Shown: piece by piece, positions 3,431-16,740 of the stretch
Numbering within the stretch: the stretch's first letter is position 1
Layout: every line of letters begins with the position of its first letter
Origin: Geosiphon pyriformis
Lineage: Eukaryota > Glomeromycota > Glomeromycetes > Archaeosporales > Geosiphonaceae
Length of the DNA: 21,886 nt
Reading direction: 5' to 3'
Assembly (NCBI GenBank): GCA_016748015.1
Contig: JAAOMT010000664.1
Location: 987,817 to 1,009,702, forward strand
Notes under the pieces: model-generated
Told to the model about the DNA's origin: nothing
The model's input: only the letters and a program-made list of their open reading frames with translations
The model's database searches: none
Position numbers and translations under genes: made by a program

Positions 3431-3460
<30 letters not shown>
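3431..3460. repeat. (ATT)n microsatellite inside a relic BTB intron
   Basis: Ten ATT units abut the relic BTB exon at 3481-3680. On the minus strand they begin about 20 bases after that exon's splice donor, where intron 1 of the two better BTB copies has a short TAATAAT. The tract probably grew from that intronic seed. Confidence 0.85.
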
Positions 3461-3461
<1 letters not shown>

Positions 3462-3480
3462 GAAAATAAAGTAACCCTAC

Positions 3481-3680
3481 CCGAGAATAATCTCGAATAT
3501 TTTTGCTCTAATATTAAGCTTCTTAAAAATCAACATATGTTCCTTCTTTTTAACACAGTTATTTGACAATGCTCGTCGAAAATAAGGAGAGCGAGCACGA
3601 AAAATGATATAATGAGCTTGAAACTTTTTAAGCTTGGCTTTTTCCACAGCTTTAATAATCACGTTATATTCATGAATGGA
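3481..3680 (-). pseudogene. Relic first exon of a BTB-domain gene
   Basis: The minus strand encodes about 61 residues clearly homologous to exon 1 of the gene at 6263-7815. Shared stretches include KFQAH, FRARSPYFRRALSN, KKKEH, LIFKK and AKIFEIILG. The exon still ends in CTCGG followed by GT, the same splice junction as the intact copy. On the 5' side the frame breaks: where the intact gene reads CAT TCT GAT GAA TAT, this copy reads CATTCATGAATAT, a two-base loss, and homology fades beyond about 3700. No second exon (rest of BTB, BACK, TLDc) follows downstream on the minus strand; an ATT microsatellite sits in the intron position. It is a dead single-exon remnant of a family that is expanded in Glomeromycotina. 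Confidence 0.8.
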
Positions 3681-6159: not shown

Positions 6160-6262
6160 TTCAATCGCGAAAAGATCATATCTACAAAACATATGTTGAT
6201 GAGTTGAAGCTAAAGACACATCAAAGTTTTTACATTTCTTTACCTTTTTATATTAATTATCA

Positions 6263-7815
6263 ATGGCTAAGTTTACCGAAACTCTTATCCATGACCTTGA
6301 CGAGTTATTGCAACATTCTGATGAATATAATCTGATTATTGAAGCTGGAGAAAAAGCCGAGCTTCAACAATTTCAAGCTCACTCGATTATTCTTCGTGCT
6401 CGTTCTCCTTATTTTCGAAGAGCATTGTCAAATGAATGGGCCAAAAAGAAGGAACATATATTGATTTTTAAGAAGCCTAATATTGCAGCAAAAATATTCG
6501 AGATTATCCTCGGGTGGGGTTAATTTATTTTCTTCCTAATAATCATATAAATATAAAGAAAGATGAAAAAATTTAAATATCTTAATTTTTAATGCTAATT
6601 TTTAGATATATGTATACCGGAATGATTGATTTGAATAAAGAAAAGGGGGTGGATGTCTTGCAAATACTGATAGCGGCTGATGAGCTTGAACTTCTCGAGT
6701 TAATCAATTATTGCCAAGAGCATCTTATTGAAAAGGAATCTAAATGGCTGCAAGAAAATGCTGTTAAAACCATGCAAACAGTTTCTTATCATGAAGCTTT
6801 TGGAAAACTGAAGGAGCATTATTCTCGAATGGTTGAGGATAACCCAGATTTTATCTTTAAATCAAATGACTTCCTTTCTTTGGAAGAATCGGTTCTTGTG
6901 TTCTTGCTAGAAGTAGGTGACCTTAATATGGAGGAAATTGAAGTGTGGAAATCTCTAATCAAATGGGGTATTGGAAACACGCCAAGACTTGTCGAAAAGA
7001 AGTTAGTGAGTTGGAGCGCAGAAGATTTTGCTGCACTTGAGAAAACCATTCACAAATGCATCCCATTGATAAGATATTGTGACATCTCTGGGGGTGACTA
7101 TTTTGACCATGTCATACCATATAAAAAAGTTTTACCAAAGAACTTCAAGAATGTAATCTGGGCATACTATCTTAAATCTATACGTCAACCACCGCTTGAT
7201 ATTCTTCCACCCCGAGCTCGTTTCGCCCAATCTCTGATCATAAAATCACGACATGTTAATATCATCTCTTCATGGATTGACAAAAAGGCTGCTACAGCGA
7301 ATTACGAATATCCCTACACCTTCAACCTTATATATCGAGGCAGTCGTGATGGCTTTACAGGAAGAAGTTTTCGAAATATATGTGCCGAATACGTAAAGAC
7401 CGTTGTCGTAGCCAAGATAGCTGGATCTGGGAAAATTGTGGGAGGCTATAATCCCACACAGTGGGGTGATCGTGTTAATAGATTCACTGAAAGGGGTTAT
7501 AAATCTTTTCCTGTTAATAGAGTCACTAAAGTTGGTTATAACCATTTTAGTGCGCCTGATGCTTTTATTTTTAACTTGGGTGATGGGAAAAATTCTAACC
7601 TTATAAAGGTTGCTCATAGTACAAGTGGAAATCAAATAGCGTATGATCCCAATTGTGGACCATATTTTTATAGTGATTTATTCTTTGGCAATAGTTCTAA
7701 CGAGATAGAATCATGCTGGTATAAGCCGAGCTCCTATAAACCTCAAATTTTTGATAATGAATTTAGTTTTCACCTTGATGAGTTGGAAGTATTTCGGGTA
7801 ATAAAAAATATATAA
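6263..7815 (+). CDS. BTB-BACK-TLDc domain protein, intact
   Basis: Two exons, 6263-6513 and 6606-7815, join across a 92-base GT..AG intron and encode 486 residues. The junction restores LGYMYTGMIDLN, the expected end of a BTB fold. Domains: BTB/POZ about 23-124 (IIEAGEKAELQQFQAHSIIL, RARSPYFRRAL), BACK about 131-230 (WLQENAVKTM, FKSNDFLSLEESVLVFLL), TLDc about 303-484 (IISSWID, YRGSRDGF, GKIVGGYNPTQW, DAFIFNLGDG, ending ELEVFRVIKN). BTB-BACK proteins commonly act as Cullin-3 substrate adaptors, and TLDc domains are linked to oxidative-stress resistance and V-ATPase regulation. This combination is abundant in Glomeromycotina. Substrate and location are unknown. Residues 374-399 carry a 13-residue imperfect tandem duplication in a TLDc loop. 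A damaged copy lies at 10983-12492 on the other strand. Confidence 0.9.
7474..7551 (+). repeat. 39-base in-frame tandem duplication in the TLDc loop
   Basis: Copies at 7474-7512 and 7513-7551 encode VNRFTERGYKSFP and VNRVTKVGYNHFS. By eye 29 of 39 bases and 7 of 13 residues match. The frame is kept. It sits between GGYNPTQW and DAFIFN, a loop that in the copy at 10983-12492 is occupied by a hexamer-type microsatellite. Confidence 0.7.
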
Positions 7816-10982: not shown

Positions 10983-12492
10983 TTAATAACTTGAAATATC
11001 AACCTGAAATCTAACTCGAGTCGTAGTATCAAAAATATCAAGTTTGAATTGGGTCGACTGATACCAGCATGATTCTTTTTCGTTGCAATTATTGTAAATC
11101 AATAAATCAGGATAAAAATATGAACTAACACTTTTACGATATACTTTTGTTTTTGACTTGTATTATGAGCCATCTTTGGGAGGTCAAGTTTTTCCCAATA
11201 CCCAAATTAAAAATAAAAGCATCAGGCGCATTAAAATATTTTTCAGAATTAGAATTAGAATAAGAATCAGAATCAAAATCAGAATATTTAAACCACAGTG
11301 TGTGGAATAATAGCCTCCCACAATTTTCCCAGATCCAACTATCTTGGCTACTATAACAGTCTTTACGTAATTGGCACGTATATTTCGAAAACTGCTTCCT
11401 GTAAAGCCATAACCACTGCCTCGATATATAGGGTTGAAGGTGTAGAGAGATTTTTAATTCGTTGTAGTCTTTTTATCGATCCATGAAGAAATGATATTGA
11501 TATGTGGTGAGTTTATGATCTCAGATTTAGCAAAACGGGCTCGAGATGGAAGGATATGAGTTGGTGGTTGAGGTTTAGTCTTAAGATGGTATGCCCAGAT
11601 TTCATTCTTGAAGTTCTTTGGTAAAACTTTTTTATATGGTATGACATGGTCAAAATAGTCATCCCCAGAGATGTCACAATATCTTATCAATGGGATGCAT
11701 TTGCGAATGGTTATCTCAAGTGCAGCAAAATCTTCTGCGCTCCAACTCACTAACTTCTTTTCGACAAGTCTTGGTGTGTTTCCAATGCCCCATTTGATTA
11801 AAGATTGCCACAATTCAACTTCCTTCATCTTAAGGTTATTTATTTGAAGCAAGAACACAAGAACCGATTCCTCCAAAGAATGAAGGTCATTTGATTTAAA
11901 GATAAAATGGGGGTTATCCTCAGCCATTCGAGAATAATGTTCCTTCAGTTTTCCAAAGGATTCATAATGAGAAACTGTTTTGATAGTTTTAACACAATTT
12001 TCTTGCAGCCATTTAGATTCCTTTTTAATAAGATGCTCTTGACAATGATTGATTAACTCGAGAAGTTCGAGCTCGTCAGCAGCTATAAGTATTTGCAAGA
12101 CATCAACCTCCTTTTCTTTATTCAAATCAATCATTCCGGTATACATATATCTAAAAAATAGCATTAAAAATTAAGATATTTAAATTTTTTTATCTTTTTT
12201 TATATTATATGATTATTAGGAAGAAAATAAATTAACCCCACCCGAGGATAATCTCGAATATTTTTGCTGCAATATTAGGCTTCTTAAAAATCAATATATG
12301 TTCCTTCTTTTTGGCCCATTCATTTGACAATGCTCGTCGAAAATAAGGAGAGCGAGCACGAAGAATAATAGAGTGAGCTTGAAATTTTTTAGGCTCGGCT
12401 TTCTCCCCAGCTTCAATGATCACATTATATTCATCAAAGTGTTGAAATAGCTCAGTAAGATCATGGATAAGAGTTTCGGTAAACTTGGCCAT
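10983..12492 (-). pseudogene. Truncated BTB-BACK-TLDc copy, TLDc part disrupted
   Basis: Exon 1 (12492-12242) and exon 2 (from 12150) are joined by a 91-base GT..AG intron, matching the intact gene. BTB and BACK are fully open and very similar to it. Early in TLDc, after IISSWIDKKTTTN, a TAA at 11456-11454 replaces the Tyr codon TAC, so the open product is 315 residues. Homology then continues in the same frame (YTFNPIYRGSGYGFTG, KIVGGYYS) to a hexamer-type repeat at 11244-11286, where the frame shifts. More shifts follow, and recognisable TLDc pieces (NAPDAFIFNLG, ESCWYQSTQF, FQVDISSY) run to a stop at 10985-10983. The damage is confined to TLDc, so a BTB-BACK-only protein could still be made; I call it a pseudogene of the full architecture. 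Its 5' flank also resembles that of the intact gene, so the duplication included upstream DNA. Confidence 0.85.
11244..11286. repeat. (AGAATC/AGAATT)n hexamer-type microsatellite in TLDc relic
   Basis: About seven variant hexamer units (AGAATT, AGAATA, AGAATC, AAAATC) sit inside the degraded TLDc coding region. On the coding strand they would read as alternating Ile-Leu. Downstream of them the TLDc homology resumes in a different frame, so repeat slippage or insertion probably caused the frameshift. Confidence 0.8.
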
Positions 12493-12544
12493 TGGGAGTT
12501 AACAGAAAAAGTTAAAAAAACCATAAAAACTTCATTCTTTATAA

Positions 12545-12554: not shown

Positions 12555-14920
12555 ATTTTAGAAAATTATGGGATACATTATTCCCCGAAATTAATAGCGA
12601 TTGGGTATAATTTAGATATCTGGTCTGTTTTCTTTTATACCATCATAACATTTTAACATAAAAACCCCAGGATTTTATGTTAAAGCGTAAGATATCTATC
12701 ACAGAATCATTTGCAAAACTTATTAGTTGAAATCGGGTAAAATCTTCTTCGGTTTGAGGCATCAACATTTTTGTAAAACATATCTTTCTTCGAAACAAAT
12801 AAAAATTTTCCAACTATTAAATATTGTGAAATTAATAATATTGTTTAAATGATATGCACAAAATGGGATGTTTAAAATAAGATAATAGTTTTTGCATGAA
12901 ACAACAAGTTTAGTATTAAATTATTTCATAAATGTCTTAAAATTGAAATATTGTGATAGGTTAAGAATGCACAAACTTGAAGCATTAATCTATTAAAATT
13001 TTCAGGAATATTTGGCCAACTATTTTCAAAAAAAAAATTCAAAATTTGTTTTTTCTGCAAGATTAACATTTACACCATAATAATTGAATAACTTTATATG
13101 CAAAATTTTTTAATTGAAAAGTTTTATATACTAATAAGATTTTAAGTTCTTTCAAAGCAATATTAATTAAAAAAATTGAATCAAGATAGTATTTATAAAA
13201 AAGATTTAATTGTAATCGCAAAGCTACAAATCATAGTCTATAGGTTTAAGTAGCTACGGTACACAAAGAATGACCATTAAAAATTATGCATGCGAAATTT
13301 CAAAAGGGCATGATTTAATAAAACCCTTATTGTTTATATGACTTTTGTTAACCAATTGTGTTTACTTTTGACAGGCATAATCACTATTTCTTAAATATTA
13401 GTCTAACTCATAAACATTCTGTAAATCTAATAAATTTAGTTAAATACTAAAATTTAAACTTGATAATTTTTGAAATTTAATACAAAAAAGTATATTCTAT
13501 TAATAGAGAAAATTATATTTTGGTATAATTATTTCTTAATAATTATAATTATTTTAATTAAAATTAATTTTTTAAATCAAAAAAAATAATAATTAACAAT
13601 TTTTAAATTAATATTTCACAGATATAATTCTTTTAAAATAACATATTGAGAATATTTTTATATATTTTTGCAAATCATAATAATAACCTGTAATCTTACC
13701 ATTATTTAAATTATTACTAACATGATTTTATACAAGTAATTATTCACTCATGTTAAATAACATCATTTTTATAAAATCTATTTTAACAAATTTGAAATGT
13801 TTTTTTTGTATAATTATTAAATGGTGACAAGTATGATTCAACTACATCTTACAAAATGTGACATCAGAAATTACCTGCATTATATTTCTCAAACAACAGA
13901 AACCTAAATAACTCAAAAATATGCCCACATTTTCTAACTTCACTATCAAAACACTGATTAATCATGTAGATAATGGTAAAATTCCTAACTAAATCTGCAA
14001 TTTTCAATTATCCTTCTTAAAAATCTCATACAAACTCCTAAATACAAAACTCCTTGCCAAATTGACATCCTGATTCTTTTGAATTGGGGTATCATATTTC
14101 TCAGTTGCCTAAAAACAAGAGTTTATAAGGCAATTTGTTTTCTTGCTTTTATCAGTAAAAATCTCTCCAAACCACCATGATTGAAGAAAACAAGTTTTTA
14201 AGACTATTGGAATTTTTTGATTCTTTTTTTTTTAAAGGAATTGTTTCTTACAAAACCTATTCCTATAACGTTAAAGTTATTGAAGTTTATTTTCAGGTTT
14301 AATAAATACTAAATCAAAAATTCCATAATCTTCTTTGCGATTGGAGATTAGTCTTTGGAGCGTAAAAAATTATTCATTTTATAATGACACAATTTATAAC
14401 TTAAAAACTTAAGTTTTAAAACAAAGTATAAAAAATATTTGAATTTTGGTGGTTACTTACTCAATCCCAAAAATCTTAAAAATCTTGTGCAATCAACTTA
14501 TTATAATAAATCAAGATTTTCTACCTAATGACTTCATGATATAACTTTTAAGAGATTAGGTATTTATAGCCTTAATAATTTAAAAACAAAAAAGAACTTG
14601 GGCAAAAAATTACTTTCAAGTGCGTTAGGATTGAATTCTTTCCAACCAATCATTTTTAGTCATGATCATTCTATTATTAAGCGAAGAATTTTGCTTGAAA
14701 TGATACAAAGATGACATCAGGTTTCTTTATCAAAGTATCATTCAACATTCATAAGGCACTCAATAAATAAAACTTTTGTACAAGATAAAAACGTGATCCC
14801 CCAATTCCATTTTGATCTACTCTAGCAAGAGAACGCAAACCTTTTATCACAAACATCTACCCATTGATTTTCTATCCTTTCTACTCGGCACCTACTACGC
14901 AAATTATTTTCTTTTAAACA
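12555..14920. other. AT-rich region holding one dispersed repeat copy, no gene
   Basis: Apart from the repeat at about 13240-13830, I find no open frame or RNA. The last 120 bases (about 14790-14920) are more C-rich on the plus strand and lead into a pyrimidine-rich tract and CAG just before the ATG at 14945. This looks like leader or intron sequence of the next gene. Confidence 0.5.
13240..13830 (+). repeat. Dispersed repeat, copy 1 (inverted partner near 20950-21525)
   Basis: The reverse complement of about 20950-21525 aligns with this segment over most of its length, in the same order. Strong matches include GAAATTTCAAAAGG, TATGATTTAAT/CATGATTTAAT, TTAACCAATT, CATTCTGTAAAT, AGTTAAATACT, and AATAATAACCTGTAATCTTA running on into CCATTATT. 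Copies differ by small insertions and substitutions. No coding frame is shared, so this is an old non-coding or non-autonomous element of unknown class. Ends are approximate. Confidence 0.75.
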
Positions 14921-14944
14921 TTTTTGCAGGACTTTTCAAAATTC

Positions 14945-16740
14945 ATGACACAAATTCAATCAAAAGACTCGGATTTAAACTTAACAAATGACTTTTCCGT
15001 GTCTGACTCTTCTCTTAGGATCGATTCTAATATTAAAGAAAGTTCCACGGAATTAACTTTGGATCCTGCTACTCAAATACCTGATAAGGCTAGCGTTGAT
15101 CTTGGTAGTCCCCAAAAATTTGAACACATCTATGAGAAAGACGAAACACCACACGAAACAATATATATGGTCACTCATCATATAGTTCACCATCGTCTAG
15201 AGATCCCAGTCATTAATCCTCCATTAACTCCTCCTCGCAAAACTTGGTGGCAAAAATTGAGAAATGGTGTTCGAAAACTAACTTCACGCCTTCTAGGTCG
15301 CATTCACAAAGTTGAAGACTCCATTGACAATACAATTCATAAAACAACGGAAAAAGTATCACATGCAGTTCATGACGCAAAAGATGCTGTGCAGGATAAA
15401 ATTCATTCTGCAGAATATAAGATTTCCGATGCAATTCACTCAGCGACCGATAAAATACAGTCTGCGGAGCATAAGATTACAGCAAAGTATGAAACGGCAA
15501 AAGAGAATCTCGCTAATCAGAAAGAAAAAGTTAAGGATGCTTTGCGCAATGCCGAAGATTCGACAAAAGAAAAGTTATTCGAAGCGAAAGATAAAGCTGC
15601 GGAATTTGTACAAGATGTTGAAGAAAAAGCCCAAATCTTTGGACAGAAAATGAAGGAGGTGGTGACCTCACCGTTTCGTGCCGCGCGTGAAAAAGTTTTT
15701 AAAGCTGCAAAAAAACAAGTTCGGAAAACGGCCAATACTGTTGATGAGTCGATTGCAGATCAAGTCATTCCTCCGGTAGGCGCATTTGGTAATTGGTGGG
15801 CTGCTGATAAAAACCAAAATAAACATTCCAATTTTGAAGAAGTTGAATGGCGCCCAACCCGAAATGCCGTTGGCAATTTGGTTCGTGAAATTATCGGTGC
15901 CAAAGAACAAATTAGTGGTGCTATTGAAGGTTCAACGGCACCCGGAAAGTCTATGGCAACTAGCGCATTTTATTGTGCAATCTTTGTTTTATATTTCGTT
16001 CGATTGAGAGTGCGTCTTTGGAATCAGCGTAAAAGAACTTCGGTCTACGTTGGCGATGGTACTATCGAAATGTTGAAAGCCATGCAAGATAGTATTCAGA
16101 GGTCTCCCTCCACTACAACTGAAACGTCAAATCTATCCGCAGAAGATACCACAGTTAACGGTGCATCGCCACAACAACTGAGAATGAATGTCACAACCTC
16201 CAAAATTACTATGAATCAAGGTAAACGCGTGGGAATTTAAGTTTAAAAGTTCATAAATAAATTTCAAATTTTCTATCTAAAGAAAATGTGGGGGCAATTT
16301 AAATCTTGGTTGCTTTAAAAATAATTAAAAGCTTTTCCGTCCCATTAGCTTCTAATTCTCGAACCAGCATTTCTCGTTCTTTGGCAGGAACAAGTCGACA
16401 TCGTCCAGTATATCAGGCGCCTTCAGCACGTGATTACGAGAATCTGATGAAACTCGTGGAAGCGTGTACAGTATACACAATTACTGTACCAATTGGTATC
16501 CTACTTCTCTCCTTTTTGGAAATGAATGGAATTCAAAATACCTTGTTGCACGTGTTGTATATCATTCTTGGTTATGCCACATTATTGCATATCCACGGTG
16601 GATTGTTCGGCACTTCACGGGAGTTTATACTAGGCAGAAAAGATGTGGCACAACAAATAGCATGGGCATTCTTAATTGTAGTTTGTTTATCGTGTGGGTG
16701 GATTGCATTGAGTAGTGTTTTTGATTCTTGGAACATTTAG
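14945..16740 (+). CDS. Amphipathic 11-mer repeat protein fused to a MAPEG-like membrane domain
   Basis: Two exons, 14945-16220 and 16349-16740, join across a 128-base intron (GTAAAC..CATTAG) with frame kept: 1668 bases, 555 residues. Residues 1-110 are Ser/Asp/Thr-rich. Residues 113-263 are Lys/Ala/Glu-rich with an 11-residue period (KVSHAVHDAKD, AVQDKIHSAEY, KISDAIHSATD), as in LEA-3 or apolipoprotein helices. TM1 is 339-355, then RVRLWNQRKRTSVYVGDG. After a long Ser/Thr linker come three helices (about 466-483, 491-508, 526-545) with VPIGILLLSFLEMNG, LHVLYIILG and HIHGGLFG. GDG, P, E..G, LH and H..G spaced over four helices recall MAPEG. Because GDG is in exon 1 and the rest in exon 2, the domain supports the splice. 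The Arg/Asn/Glu of the glutathione-site motif are not visible, so catalysis is doubtful. A pyrimidine-rich tract ending TTTTTGCAG at 14921-14929 suggests an upstream exon, possibly moving the start. Confidence 0.65.

Follow-up and report, generated by a model that had tools for sequence, protein, structure and literature searches.

A predicted gene that would join a long amphipathic arm to a divergent membrane domain of the MAPEG superfamily lies on the forward strand of the window, the whole 21,886-nucleotide stretch of Geosiphon pyriformis DNA analysed here. It occupies positions 14945-16740 and would encode an acidic N-terminal stretch, then an amphipathic helix of about 165 residues and then a divergent four-helix domain. 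We favour, with moderate confidence, a non-catalytic, FLAP-like MAPEG protein equipped with an amphipathic arm. The evidence base is one gene in one genome and consists of DNA sequence only.

Two open frames were listed in this region, 14945-16240 (431 amino acids) and 16447-16740 (97 amino acids). An earlier note on this DNA had proposed that they join in frame across 16221-16348, and this was borne out. Excision of the 128 bases bounded by GT at 16221-16222 and AG at 16347-16348 leaves an unbroken frame of 555 amino acids, and one MAPEG profile match is split between its two sides. Exon 1 (14945-16220) holds residues 1-425 and the first base of codon 426, with the N-terminal extension, TM1, GDG and the start of a loop insert; exon 2 (16349-16740) holds the remaining loop insert, TM2, TM3, TM4 and the stop. 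Mainly because the two exons match adjoining stretches of a single MAPEG profile, they almost certainly belong to one gene. From the open frames and the in-frame GT-AG join we infer splicing of the intron in vivo. The intron also divides the MAPEG landmarks as had been described, with TM1 (about 340-356) and GDG in exon 1, and P473, E483..G486, LLH and H..G in exon 2.

The homology of the four-helix domain was assessed with a YecN-type profile of 25 bacterial sequences. Two sources were used: prokaryote contigs searched with E. coli YecN (80 loci of 234 relatives) and 299 genomes of E. coli's phylum searched for MAPEG, 146 of which matched at E<=1e-6; a YecN-like query found a match in 75 of these 299 at E<=1e-8. 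Of 116 open-frame hits, 113 satisfied a filter that required both a long match and the motif Asn preceded by a basic residue; removal of rows more than 75% alike reduced these to 25. One of the 25, L101_1, is without GDG and has the longest branch. The window protein scored 38.3 bits in total with this profile. TM1, RLRVRLWNQRKR and GDG (residues 339-378; 15959-16078) match model positions 5-43 with 16.5 bits, and the TM2-TM4 region (residues 458-539; 16444-16689) matches positions 42-123 with 21.6 bits. None of 2000 shuffles of the joined domain reached 38.3 bits in either mode (best 11.5 global, 20.2 local), and the reversed sequence gave 4.0 bits. Taken alone, the exon 1 part was equalled by none of its 2000 shuffles, global or local; the exon 2 part was exceeded by no global shuffle and by one local shuffle of 2000 (33.2 against 23.7). 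Among open frames of the bacterial loci scoring below 60 bits with the profile the best reached 25.3, and the 25 listed all came from loci fetched with Pfam MAPEG.

An alignment to E. coli YecN, which was chosen by visual resemblance, scored 88 and was not matched in 1000 shuffles in either mode. Less favourably for the homology, hhalign aligned no more than 63 columns, all in exon 2 (probability 80%, E=1.4e-5). Hydrophobicity analysis of the spliced protein gives four hydrophobic regions. The features shared with YecN-type bacterial MAPEG proteins (PF01124; E. coli YecN) are four predicted TM helices, GDG behind a basic stretch that follows TM1, P and E..NG within TM2, LLH..G within TM3, and a profile match that runs across both exons.

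The curated models did not detect the domain. The HMM search of the spliced protein against Pfam MAPEG (PF01124), which the earlier note had put forward as a check, gave no match at E<=10. A copy with the loop removed scored 13.5 bits against a cut-off of 23.4, over profile positions 2-127 of 129; in this and the other loop-deleted copies, used in YecN-profile and tree runs, the cut points were chosen by the analyst. Searched over the 124.7-Mb assembly of 406 contigs, the same Pfam model found three other exons and not the window gene. No curated domain was reached in an NCBIfam search of the protein, and a PDB sequence search with the domain matched no MAPEG. Exon 2 alone was modelled as three helices (pLDDT 63.6), and a structure search with this model returned two matches only, at E 4.2 and 7.4, with no MAPEG among them. 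One scan of viral contigs for relatives of exon 2 found none. The domain is very probably a YecN-type MAPEG homologue by its profile match, outside the curated family. A member that is split, looped and divergent can escape a curated model, and here the match needed the joined exons and a subfamily profile. Two further MAPEG exons of the genome, L002 and L003 (C366), score above the Pfam cut-off and are apparently of other MAPEG types by sequence.

The earlier note had claimed a large amphipathic extension of 330 residues. An extension of 338 residues does precede TM1; its regular amphipathic part is confined to about residues 99-263. Residues 1-96 are acidic (net -9), nearly all with pLDDT below 50, and residues 97-125 are basic (net +7) and include WW. 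The amphipathic arm (residues 98-263; 15236-15733) is delimited by an 11-residue repeat and by helices predicted at 98-206 and 215-263 in a single-sequence model. Over residues 120-270 the autocorrelation of hydrophobicity is 0.49 at lag 11 and 0.35 at lag 22, and the helical peak lies at 99 degrees with a moment of 0.327, a value as high as which was seen in none of 2000 shuffles. The repeat is clearest in 119-206 and weaker in 207-263, and its register shifts half way. When exon 1 alone was modelled with AlphaFold (pLDDT 52.1), a single helix was obtained at 98-206, with block-mean pLDDT of 70-87 over 101-200. Compared with the PDB, this model gave 137 matches at E<=10 and none at E<=0.001, and the present reading draws on its predicted helices alone.

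In the class A arrangement of apolipoprotein helices, Lys and Arg lie towards the edge of the polar face and Asp and Glu towards its centre. Measured from the middle of the hydrophobic face of residues 119-206, 13 of the 17 large hydrophobics deviate by no more than 30 degrees; of the charged residues, 10 of the 15 Lys/Arg occupy the sector at 60-120 degrees and 12 of the 17 Asp/Glu that at 120-180 degrees. The phase of the wheel was fitted to hydrophobicity, and the placing of the charges is the sole independent sign. The hydrophobic face of this segment is narrow and consists of Ile/Val with Ala/Thr. Residues 207-263 are looser, with 3 of 14 hydrophobics, 7 of 15 Lys/Arg and 8 of 9 Asp/Glu in the same sectors. 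The charge placement of the arm thus appears apolipoprotein-like (class A), and the 11-residue spacing would equally fit a hendecad coiled coil, so that the pattern alone does not decide.

An 11-residue amphipathic repeat also occurs in LEA group 3 proteins. Repeats of this length are described as common to perilipins, synuclein and apolipoproteins in the available portion of PMC5889406. With perilipins, alpha-synuclein, exchangeable apolipoproteins and LEA group 3 the arm shares the 11-residue repeat with Lys towards the edge and Asp/Glu towards the centre; in contrast to theirs, its helix is joined to a four-TM domain, and it misses the curated family scores. Pfam Apolipoprotein (PF01442) gave 22.8 bits against a cut-off of 90 and Pfam Perilipin 8.3 against 33, and no LEA model was among the 22 Pfam families at E<=10, a search in which filters drop most weak matches. 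The description of the extension as LEA/apolipoprotein-like therefore holds for the 11-residue pattern and the charge placement but not for family membership. A transposon or repeat was rejected, since beyond the gene itself the genome search gave two weak arm matches, at E=0.12 and 0.74 (counts that are lower bounds).

In one alternative the arm is a hendecad coiled coil rather than a helix on a lipid surface. Three N-terminal helices of the MAPEG trimer would form a right-handed rod serving as a spacer or docking stalk, which we regard as a possibility of some substance, short of an expectation. The hydrophobic positions 7, 10, 0 and 3 of the 11-residue register correspond to a/d/e/h, which make up the core in hendecad coiled coils. 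Among the weak NCBIfam cross-hits are ZorA, archaeal ATP synthase H and F0 b, which we take to be long-helix or coiled-coil proteins, but all of them lie far below their cut-offs. A three-stranded rod would also agree with the trimeric state of MAPEG proteins given in the portion of PMC5554250 that was available. The apolipoprotein-type charges and narrow Ile/Val and Ala/Thr face of 119-206, and the shift of register half way, argue against such a rod.

The arm of the favoured protein would lie on the non-cytosolic side of the membrane. In the accessible part of PMC5554250, MAPEG proteins are described as homotrimers and MGST1 as having a cytoplasmic TM1-TM2 loop. Because the positively charged RLRVRLWNQRKR opens the TM1-TM2 loop, and this loop is cytosolic by MAPEG topology, the arm is rather more probably non-cytosolic than cytosolic. 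The protein would form a membrane trimer like other MAPEGs, set in an internal membrane with its TM1-TM2 loops in the cytosol and its three amphipathic arms either spread on the lumenal leaflet or bundled into a stalk. This orientation is awkward, because the 338-residue N-terminal domain carries no recognised signal peptide and would have to cross the membrane.

The reverse arrangement seems doubtful to us; here a cytosolic arm would attach in trans to a lipid droplet or other organelle, and the MAPEG domain would serve as its membrane anchor. The charge pattern is apolipoprotein-like, and perilipins attach to lipid droplets through similar 11-residue repeats, as stated in the part of PMC5889406 available. 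The position of RLRVRLWNQRKR after TM1 and the MAPEG topology, however, place the N-terminus opposite the cytosol. A four-TM protein is not expected within the monolayer of a lipid droplet, which speaks against a coat of the droplet itself. Of the earlier note's suggestion that the protein also coats or senses a lipid surface, coating is consequently a poor fit, since a droplet coat needs a cytosolic arm and no four-TM anchor, and the N-terminal side is predicted to be non-cytosolic.

The absence of catalysis in the favoured reading was deduced from the glutathione site. At the former motif site (residues 463-470; 16459-16482), located by the profile alignment and by an ungapped alignment to L001, the genome's own YecN-type MAPEG, the motif RAxxNxxEYxP reads EACTVYTITVP: Arg is replaced by E463, Asn by V467 and Glu by I470, while P473 is retained. 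The two alignments agree on these residues without gaps. A MAFFT alignment with 22 of the 80 enterobacterial YecN loci opens a gap of three columns ahead of the Pro and gives K460, A464 and V467 instead. The Arg/Asn/Glu triad is absent in both versions, and in the MAFFT version the place of Arg is taken by Lys (K460). Invariant positions in a hand-picked 14 of the 25 profile sequences are R27, N51, P57, E67, R87, H90, G93, R102 and G105, and R47 and E54 are almost invariant; the invariance of Asn is partly built in by the profile filter.

As stated in the accessible text on rat MGST1, the Arg is conserved in all MAPEG proteins with catalytic glutathione-dependent activity, and activity is lost on mutation of the Asn (PMC5554250). 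Because Arg, Asn and Glu are replaced and Arg and Asn have these roles in MGST1, normal glutathione catalysis is unlikely, and the protein probably lacks normal GST activity. An Arg is aligned in the TM3-TM4 loop in both the profile and MAFFT alignments, across gaps in a longer loop. By LTC4S numbering this column is presumably that of the catalytic Arg near the start of TM4, so some activity may remain.

The TM1-TM2 loop carries an insert of 79 residues (379-457), rich in Ser/Thr and interrupted by the intron; it fills the gap between the two profile matches, and its first part comprises residues 379-425 (16079-16220). Codon-position GC of the two parts of the insert is highest at the second position (0.400/0.511/0.333 and 0.515/0.606/0.273), unlike the rest of the frame. 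A weak Pfam DUF7206 match covers GDG and the S/T-rich loop at 16022-16362 without the intron (E=0.003, 18.6 bits, cut-off 25.6). The model matched nothing in the genome or in 14 controls, a search by which absence is not shown; this identity was set aside. The MAPEG-like four-helix domain of the earlier note accordingly stands as homology through the subfamily profile, but not as an ordinary MAPEG, given the score below the Pfam cut-off, the replaced glutathione residues and the 79-residue insert. Compared with YecN, these differences are joined by the 338-residue extension.

FLAP, a MAPEG protein with no enzymatic function, binds lipid but does not catalyse glutathione reactions; it has about 160 residues and no extension. 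It offers a precedent for the proposed role of the window protein, which is likened to it by description and not by sequence. Lacking a glutathione site, the protein would, in the manner of FLAP, bind or present lipid or serve as a scaffold. A FLAP-like lipid-binding function combined with an arm at the membrane surface is a tentative proposal. More speculatively, and improbably in our estimate, the glutathione-free trimer would pass bilayer lipid to three lumenal apolipoprotein-type arms or organise lipid on them; if true, this would be a membrane-anchored lipoprotein-like device and a new architecture in the MAPEG superfamily.

To our knowledge most MAPEG proteins are small enzymes much alike in size, and FLAP is the chief exception that is not an enzyme. 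In the fungus Talaromyces marneffei one MAPEG protein of 191 residues is described in the part of PMC10449922 available. Among the matches listed from titles and abstract starts of open-licence PMC articles no MAPEG with an amphipathic N-terminal extension was found, which is not proof of novelty. The combination of extension and MAPEG domain was unseen elsewhere, and is new to that extent, within this genome, one viral scan and open-licence PMC text. If the favoured reading is true, another MAPEG has turned into a lipid-handling or scaffold protein, its glutathione site traded for an amphipathic arm, and what the MAPEG fold does without glutathione becomes testable.

The closest comparison within the genome is L001 (C344:288740-288994, minus strand), which keeps RAHANFVEY intact and, unlike the window gene, has a short N-terminus in its exon; four open codons precede the Met of that exon, and an upstream exon is possible. 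Its coding sequence is, like that of the window gene, interrupted in the TM1-TM2 loop, after GDG. The eight GT-AG joins listed for L001 leave 7 to 54 extra loop residues, and the best-looking acceptor, TTTCAG (74-base intron), leaves 41. With the YecN profile L001 scores 114.7 bits when joined without a loop insert and 97.5 bits with the 41-residue insert. An insert in the TM1-TM2 loop may be common to both genes. The TM1-GDG stretches of the two are similar, with 14 of 31 residues identical (score 67, reached by none of 2000 shuffles in either mode). The exon 2 part resembles L001 weakly, with a score of 51 that 4 global and 23 local shuffles, out of 2000 each, equalled or exceeded. By local score, L001 is nearest to the TM1 stretch (67; next 62) and enterobacterial YecN to the exon 2 part (84, against 48 for L001). 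A search of the genome with the L001 protein did not match the window gene. In the tree the window protein is unplaced, belonging to no starred set, and we therefore do not claim that it arose by duplication of L001. Its end branch measures 3.8 (median 0.97). The long branch is as expected if catalytic constraint is gone.

The same branch length, together with the replaced active-site residues, could be attributed to decay. The gene would then be a MAPEG duplicate in the course of pseudogenisation that had picked up its extension from adjacent DNA. The deviant codon-position GC of the S/T-rich insert would fit this, as would the lack of a second copy in the genome search, the counts of which are lower bounds. 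Against it, 555 codons are free of stops, the TM helices and GDG are retained, and the 11-residue repeat is ordered. Codon-position GC over the whole spliced frame (0.493/0.396/0.317) also resembles that of the BTB exon of the window (0.457/0.329/0.319). A decaying gene is in our judgement improbable.

Around the splice junction GC is 0.42 in 16083-16220, 0.281 in the intron (16221-16348, 128 bases, GTAAAC...CATTAG) and 0.469 in 16349-16446. Later in-frame AG acceptors are present at 16387, 16408, 16426, 16462 and 16471; the acceptor at 16348 is favoured over them because GC drops inside the proposed intron and is higher on both sides. Two separate products, a 431-residue protein ending at 16240 and an independent 97-residue protein from 16447, are very unlikely and two separate genes were rejected: each frame is open alone, and retention of the intron, with its in-frame stop at 16238-16240, would yield a shorter protein with a single TM helix, but the MAPEG profile is divided cleanly between the frames, the 97-residue frame begins just before TM2 and so is without TM1, and GC falls within the intron and climbs before 16447. 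A sigma-70-type promoter scan was disregarded, the gene being eukaryotic.

Upstream of the predicted start, in 14920-14944, a strong-looking splice acceptor TTTTTGCAG ends at 14929, and the 15 bases from there to the ATG make five open codons. An additional exon or an intron of the 5' UTR may therefore lie before the ATG at 14945, and a hidden N-terminal signal is possible.

Elsewhere in the window two BTB genes, at 6220-7815 (plus strand) and 11027-12535 (minus strand), form an inverted pair that is 77-90% alike by piece. The plus-strand copy contains BTB, BACK and TLDc, whereas the 236-amino-acid open frame of the minus-strand copy contains BTB and BACK only. For one BTB gene of the window the scanned range gave one GT-AG solution, GTGGGG...TTTTTAG, of 92 bases. 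A third, shorter stretch at 3434-3676, which holds no listed frame of 80 amino acids, is 85-88% like parts of both genes and is perhaps a remnant.
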